From positions 1-64,000 of the forward strand of contig NZ_MLHH01000014.1 of the NCBI RefSeq assembly GCF_002000125.1: a DNA stretch of 64,000 nucleotides, read 5' to 3'. Within the stretch, counting starts at the first letter, position 1, and each line of letters begins with the position of its first letter. Below are positions 10,626-37,003 of this stretch, piece after piece. The notes below the pieces were generated by a model. It searched no databases, was not told where the DNA came from, and worked only from the letters and a program-made list of their open reading frames with translations. Source of the DNA: Rodentibacter heidelbergensis (GTDB lineage: Bacteria > Pseudomonadota > Gammaproteobacteria > Enterobacterales > Pasteurellaceae). The position numbers and the translations under genes were made by a program.

Positions 10626-10695
10626 TTTTGAACCCGTTTAAAATAACGTTGAATTGGCGGCTAATTTACGCTAAAGTACCGCCAATTTCAACCTT

Positions 10696-10790
10696 GGAAG
10701 GTCGTCATCTCCGGTGAGGTGGCAGGACTTCAAATCCTGTTGAGGACGCCAGCGTTCTCGGGTGGGTTCGACTCCCATGACTTTCCGCCA
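10696..10790 (+). tRNA. selC: tRNA-Sec (anticodon TCA)
   Basis: A 95-base selenocysteine tRNA closely similar to E. coli selC. The acceptor stem has 8 bp (GGAAGGTC with GACTTTCC, one G-T pair). The anticodon stem CAGGA/TCCTG encloses CTTCAAA with anticodon TCA at 10730-10732. There is a long variable arm (GACGCCAGCGTTCTC region), a GGTTCGACTCC T-arm and an encoded CCGCCA 3' end. It is divergent from selA. selC is a classical island insertion site in other enterics, but the repeat described at 10859 is not part of this tRNA. Confidence 0.98.
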
Positions 10791-10858
10791 CTCTCTTTGC
10801 TTTCCCCACTGCGATTGAAATCCCTGCGCTATATTATGTTTCCTCCCATTAAAAAATA

Positions 10859-10894
10859 TTAAGGTTTAATATCCCTCAAAATAGGATGTTGATG
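10859..10894. repeat. Displaced copy of the asnC 3' end (left direct repeat of the accessory block)
   Basis: These 36 bases match 20208-20244, the last 37 bases of asnC, with two substitutions and one 1-base gap outside or inside the core; the core 10859-10887 has a single mismatch in 29. Read on the minus strand it still spells PILRDIKP-stop, and the core difference (AAA for AAG, both Lys) is silent. It is therefore a remnant of a real asnC terminus, not a random match. The same bases contain ATATTAA-ACC-TTAATAT followed by T residues on the minus strand, and could act as a weak porin terminator. Confidence 0.85.
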
Positions 10895-10901
10895 TATCTA
10901 T

Positions 10902-11987
10902 TTAAAAATGAATTCTTAATCCTGCACTAACAACATAATCTGAATGATTAACAAAATGTTGTTTTGCTGATTTTCCTCCGTTATAGCGGTATTTTGCCCC
11001 CTCAAGAAATGCGACGACTTGGCGATGTAATTTGTAATCTACGCCTAAAATAATTCCTTTTAATTTTCGTGTAGTGAAGTTTTCTTTACCATTTTTGATT
11101 GGTGATTGCGCTTTCCCCCACAAATAGCCGGCATAAATTTTACTTTTCGGATTAAATTGATATTTGGCAGCAGCGAGCCATTCTTCCACTTGGTGGAATT
11201 GGGCATTGCTTTGTTTGTTTTTTACTTCGACTTTTTGTCCTCGCCAACCAAAACCATATTGTTGATGATAGCGGCGGCGACCGTAATCCAAGCCCACAGA
11301 AAAATCGTGATAGGTTAATCCTAACCCCAATCCTAATGCCCGTTCTATATTGGTTTCTGATTTCCGTTGACGGCTAACACCCACTTTCGCATCAACTTTC
11401 CAATCTTGAAAAGTATTATTGAAAAATAGTGCTAAAACATAACCATTGGTGTTCGGTAACATTTTTACTTGTCCGCTTTTATCTACGGTTTGTTTACCGC
11501 TTTCACCAAAAATATAATCTGCTCCGACTTTAAAACCGTAGAACTCTCTTGATGTGAAATGAATGACCTGATCTGCCCGTTTAATCACTTTTTTCACATC
11601 GGTTAGGTTATAGCTGTAATCTGCTGCACTGAGTAAATCACCATTAGTGATTTGTTTACCAAAAGTGAAAGTGCCCAGTGGTTTATATTGAAAACCGGCG
11701 TAAAGATAGCGAGTGTAGAGTGAACTCCCTGTTTTTTTATCGGTAAAACGCATTTCGACATTACCAAGTGCAGTTAAATTTTCACTAATTTTATGGTTTA
11801 TCCGCAAACGAATGCGTGAGCCATTATCGTCTAAATCGGTGCGTTCGCCTTGTTTATGGTGTATTTGGAAGCGGAGTGAACCCCCTAAATCGATTCGAGA
11901 GCCCCCTTCTTGATAGATTGATGCGGCAAAAGAGTAGTAAGGGACAAGAGCTGAAGTTAATAAAAATAAGCCTAATTTTTTCATCAT
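10902..11987 (-). CDS. Gram-negative porin (OmpP2/OmpC-like)
   Basis: Outer-membrane beta-barrel general porin. The 361-residue protein has a signal peptide (cleavage after ...YYSFA), alternating amphipathic strands throughout and the terminal phenylalanine of outer-membrane porins (SAGLRIHF). Family features include GSLRFQIHHKQ, FGKQ and YKLHRQVVAFLEGAKYRY segments. Lys and Arg are unusually frequent, which would favour anionic solutes (inference). It is the last gene of the minus-strand block that carries a PTS and two phosphatases, and it is separated from the upstream lipoprotein gene by a stem-loop. The ATG at 11987 follows AAGGTAAAT. Confidence 0.9.
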   Translation of the reverse strand: MMKKLGLFLLTSALVPYYSFAASIYQEGGSRIDLGGSLRFQIHHKQGERTDLDDNGSRIRLRINHKISENLTALGNVEMRFTDKKTGSSLYTRYLYAGFQYKPLGTFTFGKQITNGDLLSAADYSYNLTDVKKVIKRADQVIHFTSREFYGFKVGADYIFGESGKQTVDKSGQVKMLPNTNGYVLALFFNNTFQDWKVDAKVGVSRQRKSETNIERALGLGLGLTYHDFSVGLDYGRRRYHQQYGFGWRGQKVEVKNKQSNAQFHQVEEWLAAAKYQFNPKSKIYAGYLWGKAQSPIKNGKENFTTRKLKGIILGVDYKLHRQVVAFLEGAKYRYNGGKSAKQHFVNHSDYVVSAGLRIHF

Positions 11988-12017
11988 ATTTACCTTATAA
12001 AAAACGTACCAAATCCC

Positions 12018-12043
12018 TTCCCCGTTTGTTTTTAAACGGGGAG
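12018..12043 (-). other. Stem-loop in the leader of the porin gene
   Basis: CCCCGTTT (12020-12027) pairs with AAACGGGG (12034-12041), extendable by one or two pairs. It lies between the DUF218 lipoprotein stop and the porin start and lacks an adjacent T tract on either strand, so it may be an mRNA processing or attenuation element rather than a simple terminator. Confidence 0.5.
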
Positions 12044-12074
12044 AGATGATTGAGAAATTGTAGAGTTTTAATGA

Positions 12075-13181
12075 TTATTGGAAACGTTGAAAATCACTGA
12101 GCGTGAATAATCCCATTGAGCGGGCAACATTGACATAGGTATAAAGCGCTTCAATCTGTTTTTTCTCAGCACTTGGTGCGCTCCCACCGCCAACGCCGTC
12201 AATTTTGAGCGGATAGCCCACATAATCAGCGTAACCTTTTAATACAGCGGTGGCTCTTGGGATATGAAGTTGTGTTCCGACACCAAGAATAGTATGCAGG
12301 TTATGGTGTTTAAACAGTTTTACCATACCAATTGCATTTCCCGGGGTATCTCGGGCAATCGGATCAAATAAGAAACGATTTGGATTTACGCCATTTTCTT
12401 TCAGCCATTTTGCCATCACATCGGATTCTGCGTAAGGCGTTTTGACTGGCCCTCCACTTAGTACCAATTTTGCATTTGGATATTTTTCCGCCATTTCTTT
12501 GGTTTTTTCTAAGCGTTGTAATAAGCCCTTTGATGGTGAACCGTCCGGATTGGGTGATTGCCCGAATACGGCAATAGCATCAAATTTCAATTGGGTTTGA
12601 GGTTGAGCGGAAAATGGCTGTTGTAGAATTTTTTCGGTGAAACGGAAAAAATTACGCATCGTCTGTGCCGCTTGTGGTGAACGTTTTTCTAAGGCATTGA
12701 AACGTTGATTGACTTGTTTTTCATCTTCTAAGGTTCTTGCTACCAAAATACTGACTGCAAGGGCATGTAGATCATCTGGTTTACGGCGTAAAATTTGATC
12801 TAACTGAGAAAGGGCTTGGCGATAGTCTTTATTAATGAGATAGGCTTCAACTTGAAGTCGGTATGTATTGAGATAATCAGGTTTTTCTTTCACTTTTTGA
12901 TCTAAAGAGCGATAAAGCTTTTGCCATTCCCAGCGACGGAAAGCTTTCACATCATCTTTCAAATAAGGATCGTTTTCATAATCTTGAGCATAAGTTACAA
13001 CGAGATGTTCAATCGCCTCTCCACGTCCGCTTTCTTTACCCTTTGGTGCTTCAACGACACTTGATAAAGTAAAACCAAGCGGTGATATATCTTGGGTATT
13101 TTGTACGCATCCTGAAAGGGAAAGTGCCCCTATTCCTAATAAAAGTGCGGTAAAAAGTCGGTGGGTTTTAAACATTTTCAT
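12075..13181 (-). CDS. DUF218 (YdcF/SanA/ElyC-like) lipoprotein with helical N-terminal repeats
   Basis: The mature start is a lipobox, MKMFKTHRLFTALLLGIGAL then LSGC, so this is an exported lipoprotein. I place the start at 13181 because GGAG precedes it; the longer in-frame start would overlap the regulator gene and lacks a signal peptide. Residues about 85-180 look like TPR-type helices. Residues about 190-350 form a DUF218 domain: AIAVFGQSPNPDGSPS, then LVLSGGPVKTPYAESDVM, then DTPGNA. E. coli relatives act in envelope integrity, but the enzymatic role of the domain is unsettled. It follows the regulator gene by 73 bases in the accessory block. Confidence 0.8.
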   Translation of the reverse strand: MKMFKTHRLFTALLLGIGALSLSGCVQNTQDISPLGFTLSSVVEAPKGKESGRGEAIEHLVVTYAQDYENDPYLKDDVKAFRRWEWQKLYRSLDQKVKEKPDYLNTYRLQVEAYLINKDYRQALSQLDQILRRKPDDLHALAVSILVARTLEDEKQVNQRFNALEKRSPQAAQTMRNFFRFTEKILQQPFSAQPQTQLKFDAIAVFGQSPNPDGSPSKGLLQRLEKTKEMAEKYPNAKLVLSGGPVKTPYAESDVMAKWLKENGVNPNRFLFDPIARDTPGNAIGMVKLFKHHNLHTILGVGTQLHIPRATAVLKGYADYVGYPLKIDGVGGGSAPSAEKKQIEALYTYVNVARSMGLFTLSDFQRFQ

Positions 13182-13254
13182 TGATGTCTCCTTAACGATA
13201 TCAAATTTCAGTGATAATGAAAGGTTATGGTTTAATCTTCCATTAACTATAGCT

Positions 13255-15207
13255 TTAAATGTTGTAATAATCCGGCATAAAAAAGAATTGATAATTAGGA
13301 TTTTCACTTAAACAAAGTTGGCGTAAATCAAGTTGATGACCTACAATTTGTTTAATAATATTCATCAACATTTTTAGCTTCTGAGTATTCTGGTTAATAT
13401 TAAGATTAATTACCATAAAGATAATTTCACTATGTAAAGTGAAATCTTCACTATCTGAGAAATGATAGATATCAAATTTTTCTTCTTTCGCAGATAAATT
13501 GCAGTAAATACCTATTTTCTGTTTTTTAGATAAAATATCTAAGTAGAGATAGTTTTTGCCTTGTTCTAAGTGATTTTGGATAGGGAATATATTGAGTTTA
13601 TATTCTTTTGGAATAAGTTTAGGTGTGATTTTAGGTAAGGTTTTATCATATTGATAGGTATGGTAGAAAATAGAGGAAAGTGAGCTCACATATTCATTCT
13701 CTTGCATGTTGTCATCAGCATAATAGATAGGAGAATAAGGAATATCCATATTTTGGCCATAGCTATTACATAGGTAGTAATCATAATCAAGATTTTTATT
13801 TAATTCCAATTCATAGAGCATTTTGGTATCAATTTTGAGTATTTCATTACTAAAATAGTTTTTTAAATTGAATTTGATTTGTTGGGTGCTTAACCTACCA
13901 TTAATTGAGATGATCGCTAATTTCAGTTTCTTTTTACTCAATTCTATTCGATTGAAAATGCCGGAGAGTATATCAAAAATAAAGTAATTCTCTCGTTGTG
14001 AAAATTGATAGTAATATTTTTGTTTAAATACCTTGTTTAAACGTTCAACAACTTTAAGTAGCAAAGGGTTAGATTGAATAGTATTCGTATTGTAAAAACC
14101 AAGATCTACATCATCTGATACGCCAAGTGAAATTTTTACTGTAATTGGAATGAGTAATTTAAACAGATCCTTGAAACCTGTGTGATCTGTTGAAATATCT
14201 ACATATAAAATAGCGGCGATTTCATTAAAAATAAATTGATGAATTTCTGTCGTTTGCTTGATGAGATTATTATAGTTTTCTTTACTACAATCTGCATAGC
14301 GATAAAGATCATTGCTCATTATGAGAATGTAAGTGAGAAAACGCATTATTTCCGGAGAGAATAAAAGGGCATTTTTTTCCTGTTGTAGGTTTTCACTCAA
14401 TTGAGTTAAAAATAAATATTCTTTTGTCTTTTTATAGTGGAACGGCAAAACGGGGAGCTCAATATGATAATCTTTTTGGCGATCGTATTGATGATAAAAA
14501 TAAATCAGATATAACAAAAATCGTTCTGCATAGATGTCAGAAAGCACAATTTCAGATTGAATTAATGTTTTATTTAATATAAGACGAATTTTTTCTTTTT
14601 TAGGATGATTAAAAAGTTGATTGAATTGAGGTATGAAAAAATTTGGTTTCGTTTTATAGTTAAAATATTTATACATTCTCACCGTAAGCATGATTTTCTT
14701 AAAGGTTGCACCTTCAATTTTTATACCATAATAAGGTTTGCTCACTAATTTTAGATCATATTTTTCGAGTGTTTTTCTTACTTGATAGAGTTCTTTGCTT
14801 AACGAGCTGTTAAAACTTAAAAAGAGAGCTTCTTGTAATTGCTCAATTTTAATATAGTGCTCACTAGAAAGTAATTGGCGTAGAATATAGTTAACTCTAT
14901 GTTCAAATTTATTATTGATATTAGAAAGTTGTGAGATTTGAAAGTGGGAAAGTAAGGCGTTGGCTAATTCATCTTGTTCGATATGCAATTTATAACCATA
15001 AGCAGCTTTAGAAAAAATAGAAATTTGATATTTTTCTAATGCTTCTTTTAAATATTTGATATCATTTTTTATTGTTCGGCTACTTACTTGTATTTCACTT
15101 GATAACTTTTCACTGTTGATATGTTGGTTATTTCTTAATAACAGTAGAAAAATCGCTTTATACCGTTTATTTTTATCTAATATCCTTAAAATTTGACTAA
15201 TATCCAT
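13255..15207 (-). CDS. AT-rich transcriptional regulator, Mga/PRD-type with two N-terminal HTH regions
   Basis: A 650-residue regulator of the DeoR-HTH/Mga/PRD architecture. A first HTH lies at about residues 18-65 (SEKLSSEIQVSSRTIKNDI), a second Mga-like winged helix at about 95-165, then helical PRD-like regions (about 200-390) and a C-terminal EIIB/EIIA-like part. In PRDs a histidine normally begins the segment that reads LLIPITVKISLGV here, and I do not see it, so control by PTS phosphorylation may be lost or altered (inference). Codon use is strikingly rich in AAT, TTT and ATT compared with flanking genes, suggesting transfer. It is placed between the phosphatase and the DUF218 lipoprotein and is the obvious candidate regulator of the PTS operon. 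Confidence 0.75.
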   Translation of the reverse strand: MDISQILRILDKNKRYKAIFLLLLRNNQHINSEKLSSEIQVSSRTIKNDIKYLKEALEKYQISIFSKAAYGYKLHIEQDELANALLSHFQISQLSNINNKFEHRVNYILRQLLSSEHYIKIEQLQEALFLSFNSSLSKELYQVRKTLEKYDLKLVSKPYYGIKIEGATFKKIMLTVRMYKYFNYKTKPNFFIPQFNQLFNHPKKEKIRLILNKTLIQSEIVLSDIYAERFLLYLIYFYHQYDRQKDYHIELPVLPFHYKKTKEYLFLTQLSENLQQEKNALLFSPEIMRFLTYILIMSNDLYRYADCSKENYNNLIKQTTEIHQFIFNEIAAILYVDISTDHTGFKDLFKLLIPITVKISLGVSDDVDLGFYNTNTIQSNPLLLKVVERLNKVFKQKYYYQFSQRENYFIFDILSGIFNRIELSKKKLKLAIISINGRLSTQQIKFNLKNYFSNEILKIDTKMLYELELNKNLDYDYYLCNSYGQNMDIPYSPIYYADDNMQENEYVSSLSSIFYHTYQYDKTLPKITPKLIPKEYKLNIFPIQNHLEQGKNYLYLDILSKKQKIGIYCNLSAKEEKFDIYHFSDSEDFTLHSEIIFMVINLNINQNTQKLKMLMNIIKQIVGHQLDLRQLCLSENPNYQFFFMPDYYNI

Positions 15208-15232
15208 TTAATTCCCTTTCTTTTAATGTATT

Positions 15233-15256
15233 AAGGCTGTTCGAAATAACAGCCTT
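15233..15256 (-). terminator. Stem-loop between the acid phosphatase and the regulator gene
   Basis: AAGGCTGTT (15233-15241) and AACAGCCTT (15248-15256) form a perfect 9-bp stem with a CGAAAT loop. It lies 9 bases past the phosphatase stop on the minus strand; the following bases are only partly T-rich, so termination may be incomplete and allow some read-through into the regulator. Confidence 0.6.
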
Positions 15257-15264
15257 TATTTAAT

Positions 15265-16509
15265 CTAATCGAATGATTGATTTATAATTTCAGTCAATTT
15301 TGTTTCAATATCCGAATATGCACAAAATCCTAGTTCATTTTCTTTGCATTGTTCAAAATGAAGTTGAACGGACTGTGGTGGAGTGGCCAGTGTTAATGCT
15401 TGATCTTGCTGAATTTGTTCAATACTTTGATAAACATATTGTGTATTTACCCATTTTGTATTGTTCTTTTTATCCCGCCATATTTCAAAAAAGACTTTCC
15501 CTCCGATTGGTGTCGATTCATACTGATTTGGCAAGCGGTATGATTTTACCCCTAATGCACCGAGTAGGGTAATAATATTAGTATCATGTCCGACCAATAA
15601 ACTCATTGTTCGTTGGGAATTGTTCAATTCTTGCTGCATAAATGTAGCTAAGGGTTGGGCAAGGTGGCTTGCGATGAATTTTTCGCCTCGTAACACGGTG
15701 AAATATTCATTTTTAATTTGATTGATGATTTCCCATTTTTCCGGTGTTAATCGGCTGAGAATTTTTGATGAAAGCGGATTAGCATAAAGCTCAATCAACA
15801 AATTATCCACAATCGTTTTACCCAAACGTAATGAACCGGATACTCCCACCTCTTTTCCTTTTTCAATTTTCAGTGTTCCTTCTTCGGAGAAAAAAGCGCA
15901 GTCGGTTTTGCCTTTGCAATGCGGGGATTGGGCATAATCAATCACCTCACCAAGCACTTGATATGCTGTTTGTAATTTTTGATGAGTTTGTTTTAACGGA
16001 ATCCGGGAAATGACCGCTTGTTTGAAGGTTTCGCTATCATTACGCACAATCGGATTAAATACCGGATCCATTGTGCCAAGGGCTCTATTGTTTACCGGCT
16101 GAATGCCACAGCCGGGGAAGAGCCCCAATGTTAATGCCTGGCCTGTTGCTAAGGTTCGTTGAAGGCTATTGGTATAAATCAACACTTGTTCAGGTGGTAA
16201 ACATTGGTTGATTTTTGTTAAACCTTGTTGATTGAGGTAATCTCGAATATAACGCCCGAATTTAACCTCCAAGTCAGCGCCTTTAGACATTAATTCTCCC
16301 GGGGCTTCTTGCCAAGCCGTCCATTGATAGGGGGTAACTTGTGTGAGTTGACTATCCGATTTGATAATCGGCGTTCTGACACCGTGTCGGCTAAAAATAA
16401 AGATTTTTTCCAGCTGATAGTCGGTTGTTGGCGTAGTATATACAGCGCTTACGGCATAATTTGATAAAAAGTTCATAGCGCAGAGTAGCAAAAGGCATGA
16501 TTTTTTCAT
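15265..16509 (-). CDS. Periplasmic histidine acid phosphatase (AppA/Agp-like)
   Basis: Hydrolyses phosphomonoesters in the periplasm; family members include glucose-1-phosphatase and phytase. The catalytic signature RHGVRTP is at residues 41-47, right after an N-terminal signal peptide (MKKSCLLLLCAMNF, cleavage near ...AVSA), and the second signature GHDTN lies in the C-terminal third (LLVGHDTNIITLLGALG). Several cysteines could form the disulfides known in the family. I use the ATG at 16509, which follows TTGAGG. It lies downstream of the PTS and tyrosine phosphatase genes, 82 bases after the latter. Its substrate is unknown; inositol phosphates or sugar phosphates are both possible. Confidence 0.88.
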   Translation of the reverse strand: MKKSCLLLLCAMNFLSNYAVSAVYTTPTTDYQLEKIFIFSRHGVRTPIIKSDSQLTQVTPYQWTAWQEAPGELMSKGADLEVKFGRYIRDYLNQQGLTKINQCLPPEQVLIYTNSLQRTLATGQALTLGLFPGCGIQPVNNRALGTMDPVFNPIVRNDSETFKQAVISRIPLKQTHQKLQTAYQVLGEVIDYAQSPHCKGKTDCAFFSEEGTLKIEKGKEVGVSGSLRLGKTIVDNLLIELYANPLSSKILSRLTPEKWEIINQIKNEYFTVLRGEKFIASHLAQPLATFMQQELNNSQRTMSLLVGHDTNIITLLGALGVKSYRLPNQYESTPIGGKVFFEIWRDKKNNTKWVNTQYVYQSIEQIQQDQALTLATPPQSVQLHFEQCKENELGFCAYSDIETKLTEIINQSFD

Positions 16510-16591
16510 GTTAGACCTCAATTATTGAGTAGTGCGGTATAACGCAAAAATATCGGCAAAATTGACCGCACTTTGAGAAGATATGACCTGA

Positions 16592-17434
16592 TTATTCAAG
16601 ATAATCTGCTTGTAATTGAAGGATTTCAGCCTTACTGATACCAAGTTGTTGTTCAGTATAGCGTTGAATTGAACCATATTTCTGTTCAATGGTATCAATC
16701 GACATTTCAATGAATTCGGGTTTGGTATCAATAAGTGAATAAAGATAGTTCAATACTTCTTGATCTTGGGTGAGTTGACGATAAATTGCCATTTTTTGAC
16801 GATTACGTTCCAAGCGATTGATATGGGTCAGCATGTAATCATTAATAATTTGATTTTTATCGACCCCTAAAACCCCTAGCAATAACATAGCGCCAAAACC
16901 GGTGCGATCTTTTCCCCCTCGACAATGTTGTATAAATGCCTCCCCTTTCAGATTTGCAGCAACTTTTAACATTGAAGCAAAAGCTTTTTGACATTCTGGT
17001 TTTTCCACAAAATTTTTGTATTGTTTCATCACAATATCATCATAATGTATCAAACAACCGTTTTGTTTCTGCTCAATAATTTTATTCACCAGATTTTCAT
17101 CTTCATTTTCCTTTGATGAAGTGAATTGTGCAGCCAATTCTGCCGTGTGAGCGTTGGGGTCAAATTGGTAAATTTTCTCAGCACTTATCACCTTATTGGG
17201 ATATTTAGCAATTTCATTTGGGCTGCGATAGTCGATCACTGCCTGAATATTCAGAGGTTTTAACATTGCTATCCCATTTTCAGTCGCATTGTATAAATGA
17301 TCGGAACGATAAAGTCGTTGCCATTTGACTTTTCGGTAATCTTGGGTGAGATAGCCCCCCATATCACGAAAGTTATTCATTCCTTCTATGGGGAGGGTTC
17401 GTAATTGGGCTTGTTGTTGTAAATTTGCCGTCAT
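16592..17434 (-). CDS. LipA/PtpB-type tyrosine (or phospholipid/sugar) phosphatase
   Basis: Cysteine phosphatase with the P-loop HCRGGKDRTG at residues 170-179 (nucleophile C171, arginine R177) and the N-terminal NFRDMGG block (residues 21-27) of the Y_phosphatase3 family. Members dephosphorylate phosphotyrosine, and some act on phosphoinositides or other small phosphates. No signal peptide is visible, so it should be cytosolic. Its ATG overlaps the EIID stop in an ATGA, so it is translationally coupled to the PTS permease, which is unusual and argues that it acts on the imported phosphorylated substrate or on a PTS protein (inference). Confidence 0.85.
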   Translation of the reverse strand: MTANLQQQAQLRTLPIEGMNNFRDMGGYLTQDYRKVKWQRLYRSDHLYNATENGIAMLKPLNIQAVIDYRSPNEIAKYPNKVISAEKIYQFDPNAHTAELAAQFTSSKENEDENLVNKIIEQKQNGCLIHYDDIVMKQYKNFVEKPECQKAFASMLKVAANLKGEAFIQHCRGGKDRTGFGAMLLLGVLGVDKNQIINDYMLTHINRLERNRQKMAIYRQLTQDQEVLNYLYSLIDTKPEFIEMSIDTIEQKYGSIQRYTEQQLGISKAEILQLQADYLE

Positions 17435-18249
17435 TTTACTAATACTCCCAAATAGACAAGTGCAATACAGAGGAGCATTGTGCCAATAATCAGTGTGGCG
17501 GCATATTTACCATTGGTTTTCTTCAGTATTGAATAAATACCGACCGTGACTAATAGGCTGAACAAACCGGGCATCACTTTATCAAACATTTCTTGCAGTT
17601 TGATCGTATTTTCACCCACACTAAATTCGACACCGAATTTTACCCTCACAACAGAAGCGATTAATGCGCCGATAACCATTAGCCCCACAACGTTCGCCAT
17701 ATTGCTGACACGTTGTAAAATATTGCTGTTACCGTTAATCATATCCATCCCTTTATGGTAACCATAATGGATACCATAATATTTGGAGGCAACATTGACA
17801 ATGTTGTAGAGCAAGAACATTAAAATGGGGCCTAACAGGCTACCATTTAGTGAGAGTGCTGCACCGATACTGCCACAGATAGGTAACCAAGTGAATTTCA
17901 AAATACTATCACCCAATCCTGCTAGCGGCCCCATTAAACCGGTTTTTATTGCGGTGACGGTTTCTTTTTCATTTTCTTGGGTGGATTCTTCCACCGCTGC
18001 CGTAATACCTAGAATTAAGGCATCTGAATTGACGTGGCTATTAAAGAATTTTAAATGACGTTTCATTGCCTCGACTTTCTGTTCTTTAGGTTTATCTTGA
18101 TAAAGTCGTTTTAAAACAGGGATAAAACTGGATAGAAAACCGATTGCCTGCATAGATTGATAATTATTGGTGACATTAAGTAACTGCATTCGCCAAAAGA
18201 CTTTATTTAAATCCTGTTTAGTAATTTTGTGTGAAGTTTGCTGGGTCAT
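17431..18249 (-). CDS. PTS mannose-family permease subunit EIID
   Basis: Membrane component of a mannose-family PTS permease; it forms the sugar channel with EIIC. The 272-residue protein shows the EIID landmarks: an N-terminal soluble helix with FWRMQLLNVTNNYQSMQAIGF, the TAAVEE region, GLMGPLAGLGDSILKFTWLPI, and C-terminal membrane segments. It overlaps EIIC upstream and the tyrosine phosphatase downstream by four bases each. The sugar cannot be predicted from the sequence. Confidence 0.93.
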   Translation of the reverse strand: MTQQTSHKITKQDLNKVFWRMQLLNVTNNYQSMQAIGFLSSFIPVLKRLYQDKPKEQKVEAMKRHLKFFNSHVNSDALILGITAAVEESTQENEKETVTAIKTGLMGPLAGLGDSILKFTWLPICGSIGAALSLNGSLLGPILMFLLYNIVNVASKYYGIHYGYHKGMDMINGNSNILQRVSNMANVVGLMVIGALIASVVRVKFGVEFSVGENTIKLQEMFDKVMPGLFSLLVTVGIYSILKKTNGKYAATLIIGTMLLCIALVYLGVLVK

Positions 18250-19016
18250 AGGTCATAGTCCTCATCATTCGTATTTTGATTGGAAGCTACCGCTTGAGTA
18301 TTTTTATGAATTGCCAAGTCATAAATTAGGGCTAACGGTAAGGCAATTAGGGTAATCGGTAAGACGGATAATTTAAGATAAACAGCGAGCGTGAAACCTG
18401 CGACTAAGAAGAGCCAGAGTTCTGCTTTTTTCAACATCATTAACATAAGTAAACCAATACCGATAGCGGGAATGATTTTGCCGGCAACATTTAAACCGGT
18501 AATCATTTTACCCGGTAATTGTGCCACGATTTGTGCGATTAAATCCGCACCGAAATAGACAGCTAAAAAGGTAGGCACAGCACGAATTAAGAAAGCGATT
18601 GTCATCGGAATATATTGGATCCGAAAAATTTTATCGAAATTTCCTTCTTCGGCCCAACGCTCTGCAATTGGGTTTAGGGCTACAATGCCCGAACGGTATA
18701 AAATCAAAAGTTGCTGAGCAAGTAATGAGGTTGGAACAGCAAGGGCAATCGCTGCTTCAGTACCTCCTGCGGCAATACCTAATGCTGTGCCAATTGCGGT
18801 ACCTGAAATCATATCCGGTGCGGAATAGGCACCAACATTCCCTACGCCCATCCACATCACCTCTAAGGTTGCCCCAATTAAAAGTGCGGTCTGTAAGTCA
18901 CCCATAATTAAGCCGACAACTGTTGCGATCAAGAGTGGTCGTCTAATCATTTGCGTACCGATATCATCAATCGCACAAATACCCGCCCATAATGCAACGA
19001 AAAGTGCAGTTATCAT
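18246..19016 (-). CDS. PTS mannose-family permease subunit EIIC
   Basis: Membrane-embedded transport subunit of a mannose-family PTS. The 256-residue protein is almost wholly hydrophobic with the family blocks WAGICAIDDIGTQMIRRPL, LIMGDLQTALLIGATLEVMWMG and VGNVGAYSAPDM. Translation overlaps EIIB by four bases and EIID by four. The start region carries a near-uptake sequence (ATAACTGCACTTTTC), and one complete uptake sequence lies inside at about 18884. Confidence 0.93.
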   Translation of the reverse strand: MITALFVALWAGICAIDDIGTQMIRRPLLIATVVGLIMGDLQTALLIGATLEVMWMGVGNVGAYSAPDMISGTAIGTALGIAAGGTEAAIALAVPTSLLAQQLLILYRSGIVALNPIAERWAEEGNFDKIFRIQYIPMTIAFLIRAVPTFLAVYFGADLIAQIVAQLPGKMITGLNVAGKIIPAIGIGLLMLMMLKKAELWLFLVAGFTLAVYLKLSVLPITLIALPLALIYDLAIHKNTQAVASNQNTNDEDYDL

Positions 19017-19483
19017 TTAATCACCTCCGTTAAGTTTACTTTTTCATCATTGGGTACCATTTGAATGGTCACCGTCACCCCTTTATCCAAAAGTTGTTGA
19101 AAAGCCGAACGCTCTTCGTTAGTCACAGATAAAGCTTTCGTTAATTGGGTTCTCCCCTCTTGAAAACGCATTCCGCCAACATTTAGCTCATTAATAGGAA
19201 CGCCTGCATTGACGGTTGATAACACATCAATACTGTTGGTAAACAGTAACATTGTGCGTCTGCTGAGTCCTTTGGTTCGATAAATTTCTGCAAATTTTTC
19301 AATTGTCAGTACGACAACTTTGATGTCTTGTGGAGCAGCCATAGCTAAAATATTTTTTTGAGTTTGATCGGTCGCTAATTTATCGTTTAGCACCACAATT
19401 TGTTCTACTTTGAATAGATTGACCCAAGTGGTAACGACTTGTCCGTGAATTAAGCGATCATCAATGCGACTAAAGCAAATCAT
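19013..19483 (-). CDS. PTS mannose-family phosphotransfer subunit EIIB
   Basis: Cytosolic domain that takes phosphate from EIIA and gives it to the incoming sugar. The active-site histidine is H13 in SRIDDRLIHGQVVTTW. The 156-residue length is typical. I use the ATG at 19483 because it follows AGGAGG; a longer frame starting at 19510 would add residues that no EIIB has. The start lies inside the 3' end of the EIIA gene, a 14-base overlap. Confidence 0.93.
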   Translation of the reverse strand: MICFSRIDDRLIHGQVVTTWVNLFKVEQIVVLNDKLATDQTQKNILAMAAPQDIKVVVLTIEKFAEIYRTKGLSRRTMLLFTNSIDVLSTVNAGVPINELNVGGMRFQEGRTQLTKALSVTNEERSAFQQLLDKGVTVTIQMVPNDEKVNLTEVIK

Positions 19484-19901
19484 CTTCGTCCTCCTGTTTT
19501 TGTAAATCATTGAAATCTCGAATGGTTAATCCGTTTTGATAGGCTGTTTGAATAAGCGATTTCATTTCATCAAATGGTAAATCACGATTCATTAGTACAT
19601 CGAGTAATAGGGGTAAATTCAATCCGCAACAGACTAAAATATTTTCTTTTGTGAGTAAGTGAGAGGCCAAATTCATCGGTGTGCCACCGAGAATATCAGT
19701 TAAAAAAATCAACCCTGATTGTGTATCTAATGAGGCGATTTTCTCTTGTAATTCTTGTTTTAAGTGAGAAACGTTATCTACGGTAAATATTGATAAGGTT
19801 TCAAAGTTTGTTTGTTTTCCCACAATTAATTCCGCACTTTCTATTGCCGCTTTAGCAAAGTTTCCGTGGCTCATTAACATGAGGGCAATTTCTTTTGACA
19901 T
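19470..19901 (-). CDS. PTS mannose-family phosphotransfer subunit EIIA
   Basis: First sugar-specific phosphocarrier of the operon; it receives phosphate from HPr. The active histidine is H12 in MSKEIALMLMSHGNFAKA, and the DILGGTPMNLA block is typical of EIIA(Man). I use the ATG at 19901, which has GGAG nine bases upstream, rather than the in-frame ATG at 19964, which would begin at the expected transcription start. It is a separate 143-residue protein, not the EIIAB fusion (ManX) of enterics. First gene of the EIIA-B-C-D-phosphatase-phosphatase operon. Confidence 0.93.
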   Translation of the reverse strand: MSKEIALMLMSHGNFAKAAIESAELIVGKQTNFETLSIFTVDNVSHLKQELQEKIASLDTQSGLIFLTDILGGTPMNLASHLLTKENILVCCGLNLPLLLDVLMNRDLPFDEMKSLIQTAYQNGLTIRDFNDLQKQEDEDDLL

Positions 19902-19973
19902 TGTGTTTTTCTCCATTGACTTAAGTATTGATGACAATGTAGGAGAAAGTGGTGATTGACTCAATTTTTAGAA

Positions 19974-19993
19974 TTGCACGATATATCGTGCAA
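19974..19993. promoter_or_regulatory. 20-bp perfect palindrome overlapping the PTS promoter (operator candidate)
   Basis: TTGCACGATATATCGTGCAA is its own reverse complement over all 20 bases. On the minus strand its first six bases (TTGCAC) could serve as a -35 element, with TAAAAA 17 bases downstream as -10, about 55 bases before the EIIA start. A dimeric repressor or activator bound here would control the PTS operon; the regulator encoded at 13255-15207 is the natural candidate (inference). I see no second copy in the block. Confidence 0.6.
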
Positions 19994-20083
19994 ACTAAAT
20001 TTTGTTAACAGGAAGAGAATGAATAAATTGAGGGGGGAATTGGGCTTAAATTTGTGTAAATTTCCCAATTAAGAGAGCTTGAG

Positions 20084-20192
20084 GGAATTTACCTCATATC
20101 ATATCCATTGGCTAAATTGTTTTAGAGTTCAGTCATTTTTCCCTATGAATAGAAGATATTCACTGCTCGCCATTGTCGTAGAGGTAAATTCC
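20084..20192. repeat. 12-bp inverted repeat enclosing 85 bases
   Basis: GGAATTTACCTC at 20084-20095 and GAGGTAAATTCC at 20181-20192 are exact reverse complements. The 109-base unit lies next to the right border of the accessory block. It resembles a very short MITE or a relic end of a mobile element, but no transposase or target duplication is evident, so this is only a sequence observation. Confidence 0.45.
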
Positions 20193-20207
20193 ATCAAAGA
20201 AACATTT

Positions 20208-20244
20208 TTAAGGCTTAATATCCCTCAAAATAGGATTTTGCATG
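20208..20244. repeat. Right direct repeat: 3' end of asnC
   Basis: The last 37 bases of asnC, matched by 10859-10894 in the same orientation (29-base core with one mismatch). Together they bound 9.3 kb of accessory genes. This copy is in frame with asnC and codes the native-looking end [10 protein letters not shown]. Confidence 0.85.
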
Positions 20245-20660
20245 GAAATCAGTGTTTCGGTGGATTGAATTTCATCAATTAATTGAATTTTGGTGGCCAA
20301 AACCGAATGTAGTTCGGCTATGGTGTGGGTCATTACTTTGATGAAAATCGAGTAATTGCCTGTGGTGTAATAGGCTTCTACCACTTCATCAAAGGTTTCC
20401 AGTTTTTTTATCACTTTTTCGTAATCTTTTGCACTTTTTAAAATGATGCCGATAAAACAGCAAACATCATAGCCAAGTTTACGTTCGTCAATAATCACTT
20501 TTGTGCCTTCAATCACACCGGATTGGCGCATTTTTTCTACCCGAACGTGAATTGTGCCGGGGCTAACGCCAAAATTTTTTGCCATTTCAGCATAAGGTGT
20601 GCGTGCATCTTTGGTGAGAACACGGAGAATTTGTTGATCGAGATTATCAATATTATGCAT
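20208..20660 (-). CDS. asnC: Asparagine-responsive Lrp/AsnC-family regulator
   Basis: Activator of asnA that senses asparagine. The 150-residue protein has the Lrp/AsnC layout: an N-terminal HTH (residues about 5-60, LDQQILRVLTKDARTPYAEMAKNFGVSPGTIHVRVEKM) and a C-terminal RAM ligand-binding domain. Length and the ending ...NPILRDIKP match E. coli AsnC. It is divergent from asnA with 153 bases between them, the classical arrangement. Its 3' end is the direct-repeat target of the accessory block. Confidence 0.95.
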   Translation of the reverse strand: MHNIDNLDQQILRVLTKDARTPYAEMAKNFGVSPGTIHVRVEKMRQSGVIEGTKVIIDERKLGYDVCCFIGIILKSAKDYEKVIKKLETFDEVVEAYYTTGNYSIFIKVMTHTIAELHSVLATKIQLIDEIQSTETLISMQNPILRDIKP

Positions 20661-21878: not shown

Positions 21879-22078
21879 GGTGCAGAGTAATCCTTGTTCT
21901 GTTATTAAAATCACACCAAAAACTGACCGCACTTTTTGATACAGATCATCAAATCCCTCCAAAAAATTCAAAATAATCATCAATTTTCAAAAATGAGATC
22001 TACTTAACATTTTTTTTAATTCACTTTATTTAGAATAAACATAGGTTAAATTTTAGACTTTTTCCATAGAGGTGAGTT

Positions 22079-36534: not shown

Positions 36535-36724
36535 ATCAAATGATATTCAATCATTTCGTATTTTATAAATATAGTGTGTCAGCCTAGCGAGTTGAGAAAA
36601 TTGCTGAGCAATACTTTTATAAACGATGACATTGAATTTCAGTGGAAGAACATCTTTTTTCATCGCCTTTCACGTTATTTCAAGATAAACTATAAGCCTT
36701 TTATTATTAGTCAGACGAAATTTT

Positions 36725-37003
36725 ATGCGGATATTTATTGCTATCCTTGTGGGGATTCTTGCACTTTTCCAATACGATCTTTGGTTTGGTAAGAATGGTT
36801 ATTTTGATTACAAAGCAGTGTCAGCACAAATTATTGAAAATAAAGCGGAAAATGAAAAATTGGTGCAGAGAAATCAAATGATTTCAGCTGAAATTCAGGG
36901 GCTAACAAAAGGGTTTGAATCCATTGAGGAACGGGCGAGAATGCAGCACGATCTCGTAAAAGAAAACGAAACTTTTTACCATATTGTGAAAGAGCATAAA
37001 TAA
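36725..37003 (+). CDS. ftsB: Cell division protein FtsB
   Basis: Bitopic divisome protein that joins FtsL and FtsQ. The 92-residue protein has a single N-terminal membrane helix (residues about 2-20), then a periplasmic coiled coil ([22 protein letters not shown] region) and the conserved C-terminal [20 protein letters not shown]. The stop overlaps the ispD start (TAATG), giving the conserved ftsB-ispD-ispF order. Confidence 0.94.

Follow-up and report, generated by a model that had tools for sequence, protein, structure and literature searches.

A 3' end that occurs twice

Within the 64,000-nucleotide stretch of Rodentibacter heidelbergensis DNA that was analysed (here, the window), the terminal 33–36 bases of asnC are present twice, in direct orientation and 9.35 kb apart, with nine minus-strand genes lying between the copies and the tRNA gene selC close to the outer one (Table 1). 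Integrase-borne islands insert at the 3' ends of genes or tRNA genes, leaving att direct repeats, and the enterobacterial islands at selC are among them. The locus raises the question of whether the block is an island inserted at asnC, and by which route it came there. We found no paper joining asnC with genomic islands in the Pasteurellaceae, nor one describing the operon carried by the block.

Table 1. Coordinates of the features at the asnC–selC locus, in positions of the window.
Feature	Position	Strand	Evidence or remark
selC (tRNA-Sec)	10695..10790	+	ARAGORN, Rfam RF01852
68-bp orphan spacer, selC to displaced repeat	10791..10858		matched in its own genome only
Displaced asnC 3' end copy (last 8 codons, stop and few bases)	10859..10894	-	sequence matches
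Porin	10902..11987	-	PF13609, E 4e-26
Lipoprotein with DUF218 domain	12075..13184	-	PF02698, E 4.2e-15; 51–55% identity to Streptococcus proteins
HTH_11/Mga-type regulator	13255..15207	-	PF08279, PF05043; markedly AT-rich (~29–30% GC)
Histidine acid phosphatase, nearest glucose-1-phosphatase Agp	15265..16509	-	PF00328
Tyrosine-phosphatase-family protein	16592..17434	-	PF13350, E 1.7e-60
Mannose-family PTS IID	17431..18249	-	PF03613
Mannose-family PTS IIC	18246..19016	-	PF03609
Mannose-family PTS IIB	19013..19510	-	PF03830
Mannose-family PTS IIA	19470..19964	-	PF03610
Perfect 20-bp palindrome TTGCACGATATATCGTGCAA, 5' of IIA	19974..19993		conservation among carriers
3' end of intact asnC, other repeat copy	20208..20244	-	sequence matches
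asnC regulator, intact	20208..20660	-	NF008384, 279 bits (cut-off 227)

Sequence comparison confirmed the repeat as the initial annotation had described it. The 29-base core (10859–10887 against 20208–20236) has a single mismatch, a T/C difference that is silent in a lysine codon (AAA/AAG), and the displaced copy, read on the minus strand, still encodes PILRDIKP followed by a stop. Over the longer repeat (10859–10891 against 20208–20240) 31 of 33 positions are identical, with two mismatches, and the similarity extends to about position 10895 with one deleted base. A search of the whole window retrieved no match beyond the two copies and shuffled windows retrieved none at all. When 140 Pasteurellaceae genomes were scanned, allowing up to three mismatches, only the R. 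heidelbergensis genome had two copies. A chance repeat was rejected, since the shuffles gave none and no other genome of the 140 holds a second copy; nor is the repeat present at many loci, a case that the initial annotation had set against the island idea, as the window has two matches and the other genomes no more than one copy each.

Gene content and predicted function of the block

Family profiles agreed with the gene content first proposed (a porin, a DUF218 lipoprotein, a regulator, two phosphatases and a PTS). The acid phosphatase scored 392.9 bits against NF007553, under the cut-off of 425. The reported lack of an integrase was also borne out, no recombinase being found among the nine block proteins by family profile search; R. 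heidelbergensis has integrase-family genes in the window, where the gene is XerD, and on contigs C2 and C28. A phage origin was rejected, as no phage hallmark families were found and the phage genomes gave no near match. Carriage on a plasmid was rejected as well, because the DUF218 protein has only distant plasmid matches, none above 31% protein identity.

Judging from the gene families, a small sugar, phosphorylated or free, would enter through the porin, the Agp-like phosphatase, presumably periplasmic, would release it, and the mannose-type PTS would take it in, with the Mga-like regulator controlling the operon, perhaps through the palindrome upstream of IIA. We infer that the block may be a sugar scavenging operon. 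The palindrome is identical in four other carriers of the block and has one mismatch in R. rarus, so that it is kept in every carrier read upstream of IIA; the streptococcal clusters described below gave no copy of it. It is a probable operator.

Occupied and empty sites among Rodentibacter species

R. heidelbergensis (G000) was compared with 14 congeners (G001–G014). Seven of the 15 species carry the block, namely R. heidelbergensis, R. mrazii, R. trehalosifermentans, R. caecimuris, R. rarus, genomosp. 1 and sp. Ppn85. Relatives lacking the block do exist: in six congeners (G001, G006, G007, G008, G010 and G013) the site is empty and a single asnC end is followed by a convergent FAD-oxidoreductase gene, here c8. 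This end is joined to c8 and never to selC, and the predicted empty junction of asnC with selC was found in none of the 14 congeners. In R. mrazii, R. caecimuris, genomosp. 1 and sp. Ppn85 the block lies on the 3' side of asnC and reaches c8, the continuity from asnC to c8 crossing contig breaks inside the block in R. mrazii and sp. Ppn85. In R. trehalosifermentans the block adjoins c8, a contig end cuts it off within IIA, and asnC lies among different genes. Different genes occupy the asnC site in G012 and G014.

R. rarus has the block elsewhere, between a dihydrouridine-synthase gene (dus) and rpsL, an interval that is empty in R. heidelbergensis, and there roughly 100 bp of spacer were replaced. 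An IS-end-like repeat of ~80 bp lies beside its porin gene (L092:5830–5928), with further copies on R. rarus contigs C99 and C114 and on R. trehalosifermentans contig C75; the R. rarus repeat showed no transposase frame. The porin end abutting a repeat that recurs in the same genome would be in line with IS-mediated movement of the block, but neither block end in the window has such a repeat, and we consider this route very improbable.

The R. rarus assembly has a contig break 70 bp from asnC. Near the asnC end and near the c8 end of R. rarus (L174, L091), repeats of the GTGTGTCC type were observed, and a galactitol-type PTS with a class II aldolase cluster now adjoins c8 in this species.

Exchange of the block between species

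The concatenated block genes are 99.0–99.6% identical among R. mrazii, R. caecimuris and genomosp. 1, against 82.9–87.4% for the backbone genes (selA, selB, oadA and oadB). The corresponding values are 98.2% against 91.9% between R. heidelbergensis and R. rarus, its sister species in the backbone gene tree, and 95.7% against 86.5% between R. heidelbergensis and R. trehalosifermentans. Between R. caecimuris and genomosp. 1, near-identity runs from the c8 end to a point ~54 bp within asnC, and the flanks are ~90% identical. The tract that R. caecimuris has in common with both R. mrazii and genomosp. 1 takes in these last ~54 bp of asnC, and thus donors bring their own gene end. Block identity is well over that of the backbone and drops abruptly at the asnC end as well as at the c8 end, as expected for homologous exchange. 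These comparisons of genomes show the block to be a horizontally exchanged cassette of Rodentibacter, of putative metabolic function. Taken together, the empty sites, the identity of the block far above the backbone, its sharp edges and the alternative site in R. rarus indicate that the island idea was right. What held of the first reading is the mobile accessory DNA, the empty sites at asnC and the displacement of the old gene end; its placing of the island at selC and the repeat as an attachment site did not hold. A whole operon, predicted to serve sugar uptake, spreads between species without any mobility gene.

The second asnC end is missing from all six other carriers, and no terminal direct repeats were found in the three of them examined for this feature (R. 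caecimuris, R. rarus and genomosp. 1). The repeat pair therefore does not behave as the attL/attR of a site-specific element. Most plausibly, it is an insertion scar of this single genome, and the displaced copy is the old asnC end pushed aside. Site-specific integration at the asnC 3' end, by an integrase-type element bearing a copy of that end whose integrase was lost or acted in trans, would account for a direct repeat of a gene 3' end bounding accessory DNA and for several species having the block exactly at this gene end; integrase-borne islands, too, show patchy distributions and empty sites. However, the observations are less easily reconciled with an integrase, as none of the other carriers, those occupied at the same site included, has the repeat pair; moreover, the block holds no recombinase, the window's integrase-family gene is XerD, no phage is a near match and in the sister species the block sits at an unrelated position, where about 100 bp of spacer were replaced. 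We regard this integration as improbable.

The same 3' end might instead be the preferred target of a recombinase-free cassette, entering repeatedly in different species through a host-supplied or unrecognised reaction and sometimes leaving the old end behind, a proposal to which we give little credence.

The selC junction

The block had been noted to end about 70 bases past selC, taken as a classical island site. The distance was accurate (68 bases), but selC adjoins the block in R. heidelbergensis only, and searches of other genomes gave no match to the 68-bp spacer between them. Apart from G012 and G014, all congeners read have oadGAB after selC, separated from it by a few additional genes in G008, G010 and G013. 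In R. heidelbergensis oadGAB lies 85 kb off on the same contig, and c8 is found on another contig beside an unrelated ATPase gene. Given the selC–oadGAB and asnC–c8 order of the congeners, the selC–block junction and the flanks of c8 and oadG are products of rearrangement in the R. heidelbergensis lineage. The chromosome rearrangement that created the selC junction is peculiar to this one genome; selC itself is a bystander. As an integration target selC was rejected, on account of its oadGAB neighbours in congeners and of its 3' end, which has a single match in the window and no duplicate at the far boundary of the block. A gene-end repeat near a tRNA gene does not necessarily denote an integrase island.

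A second rearrangement scar was seen in the window at 36661–36750, where the congener sequence 3' of gene c36 continues, genes c31–c36 being on contig C2.

Origin of the block in R. heidelbergensis

How the scar, which one genome seems to keep from the entry of the block, was formed can be addressed through the two asnC ends. They are different alleles: the nearest allele to the displaced copy is that of R. trehalosifermentans, with one mismatch in 33, and one of the two differences in 33 between the copies is a T allele also present in other species. This supports the coexistence of a donor end and an old recipient end. The reading that we favour, and to which we give about an even chance, is that R. 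heidelbergensis acquired the block by DNA uptake, with a homologous joint at asnC and a non-homologous one at the far side. Linear DNA would have been taken up from a relative in which asnC adjoined the block. One end would have recombined homologously inside asnC (or asnA–asnC), the donor supplying the present gene end, whereas the other, just past the porin, would have been joined without real homology inside the recipient asnC, ~36 bp from its 3' end, so that the recipient's old end would remain beyond the porin as the displaced copy. The rearranged flank is observed; the recipient asnC end may have faced selC beforehand or been brought there in the same episode.

Homology-facilitated illegitimate recombination (HFIR) in other competent bacteria combines one homologous end with one illegitimate joint, the latter usually at 3–10 bp of microhomology, with inserts of ~1 kb (PMC3240628). 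The Rodentibacter block resembles blocks passed on by natural transformation via homologous flanks, HFIR among the routes, in having no integrase, high identity only within the block, conserved flanks as the place of crossover and competence-family genes in the host, predicted ComEC- and DprA-family genes being present in R. heidelbergensis. It differs in its size, 9.3 kb, which counts against the uptake model, and in that its illegitimate joint is presumed.

The divergence between R. heidelbergensis and R. rarus is ~9% over asnC–asnA and 3–4% from pckA on, a two- to threefold difference that sets in abruptly near 22,000. Such a step is expected from an imported homology arm and thus counts for uptake; it is equally explicable as an import into R. 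rarus, which counts against, as does the asnC–asnA tree, still pairing R. heidelbergensis with R. rarus (support 0.67). The block holds three uptake signals, in favour of the model, but at 0.32/kb against 0.69/kb for the window, to its detriment. Also weighing against it are the absence of the asnC–selC junction from the congeners and the fact that we know of no demonstration of HFIR in Rodentibacter.

The main rival, rather unlikely in our judgement, is that the block already lay beside asnC, as in R. caecimuris, and that the rearrangement exchanging the c8 flank for selC copied a short asnC stretch as filler DNA into the porin–selC junction, by template switching or repair synthesis. The spacer between asnC and the block in R. 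heidelbergensis is indeed homologous to that of R. caecimuris, so that their linkage is old, a point that also counts for uptake, the second copy occurs only in the rearranged genome, and the orphan spacer sits at the same joint. Filler would, however, have no reason to end at the gene's stop codon, where the strong similarity breaks off on one side, and the displaced copy departs from today's asnC at the two positions mentioned, one of which has the T allele of other species.

A Campbell-type insertion, in which a circularised block with ~36 bp of the asnC end recombined homologously within asnC, would yield exactly a full asnC, the block and a truncated asnC end, and permits small differences between the copies. 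It requires a circle and recombination through ~33 bp, and the DUF218 protein has no plasmid relative beyond the distant ones given above; we hold it to be quite unlikely.

A related operon in Streptococcus

Clusters in S. ovuberis (L121:4196–11518), S. suis and S. danieliae (L122, L123) contain seven of the genes in the same order as the block (IIA-IIB-IIC-IID-phosphatase-regulator-DUF218). Across the three Streptococcus genomes the seven genes have 38–76% protein identity with those of Rodentibacter, the regulator being 38–40% identical. The streptococcal clusters are without the porin and the acid phosphatase, and their neighbourhood is different. A search of 321 genomes from across the Gammaproteobacteria turned up the DUF218 protein in one, that of R. 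heidelbergensis itself, and among relatives close copies of the protein are in Rodentibacter only. For an operon common to two phyla, the simplest reading is a transfer between phyla, in either direction, with Gram-negative additions. The Gram-negative genus has a porin and a periplasmic-type phosphatase alongside the genes in common with Streptococcus.

Within Rodentibacter, the regulator gene is mosaic with respect to R. rarus, with 86% identity around 14000–15000 and 97% on either side. The block of genomosp. 1 (L096:4496–7432) has no acid phosphatase, the rest being 99% identical to R. caecimuris, which indicates that this gene was recently lost or gained.
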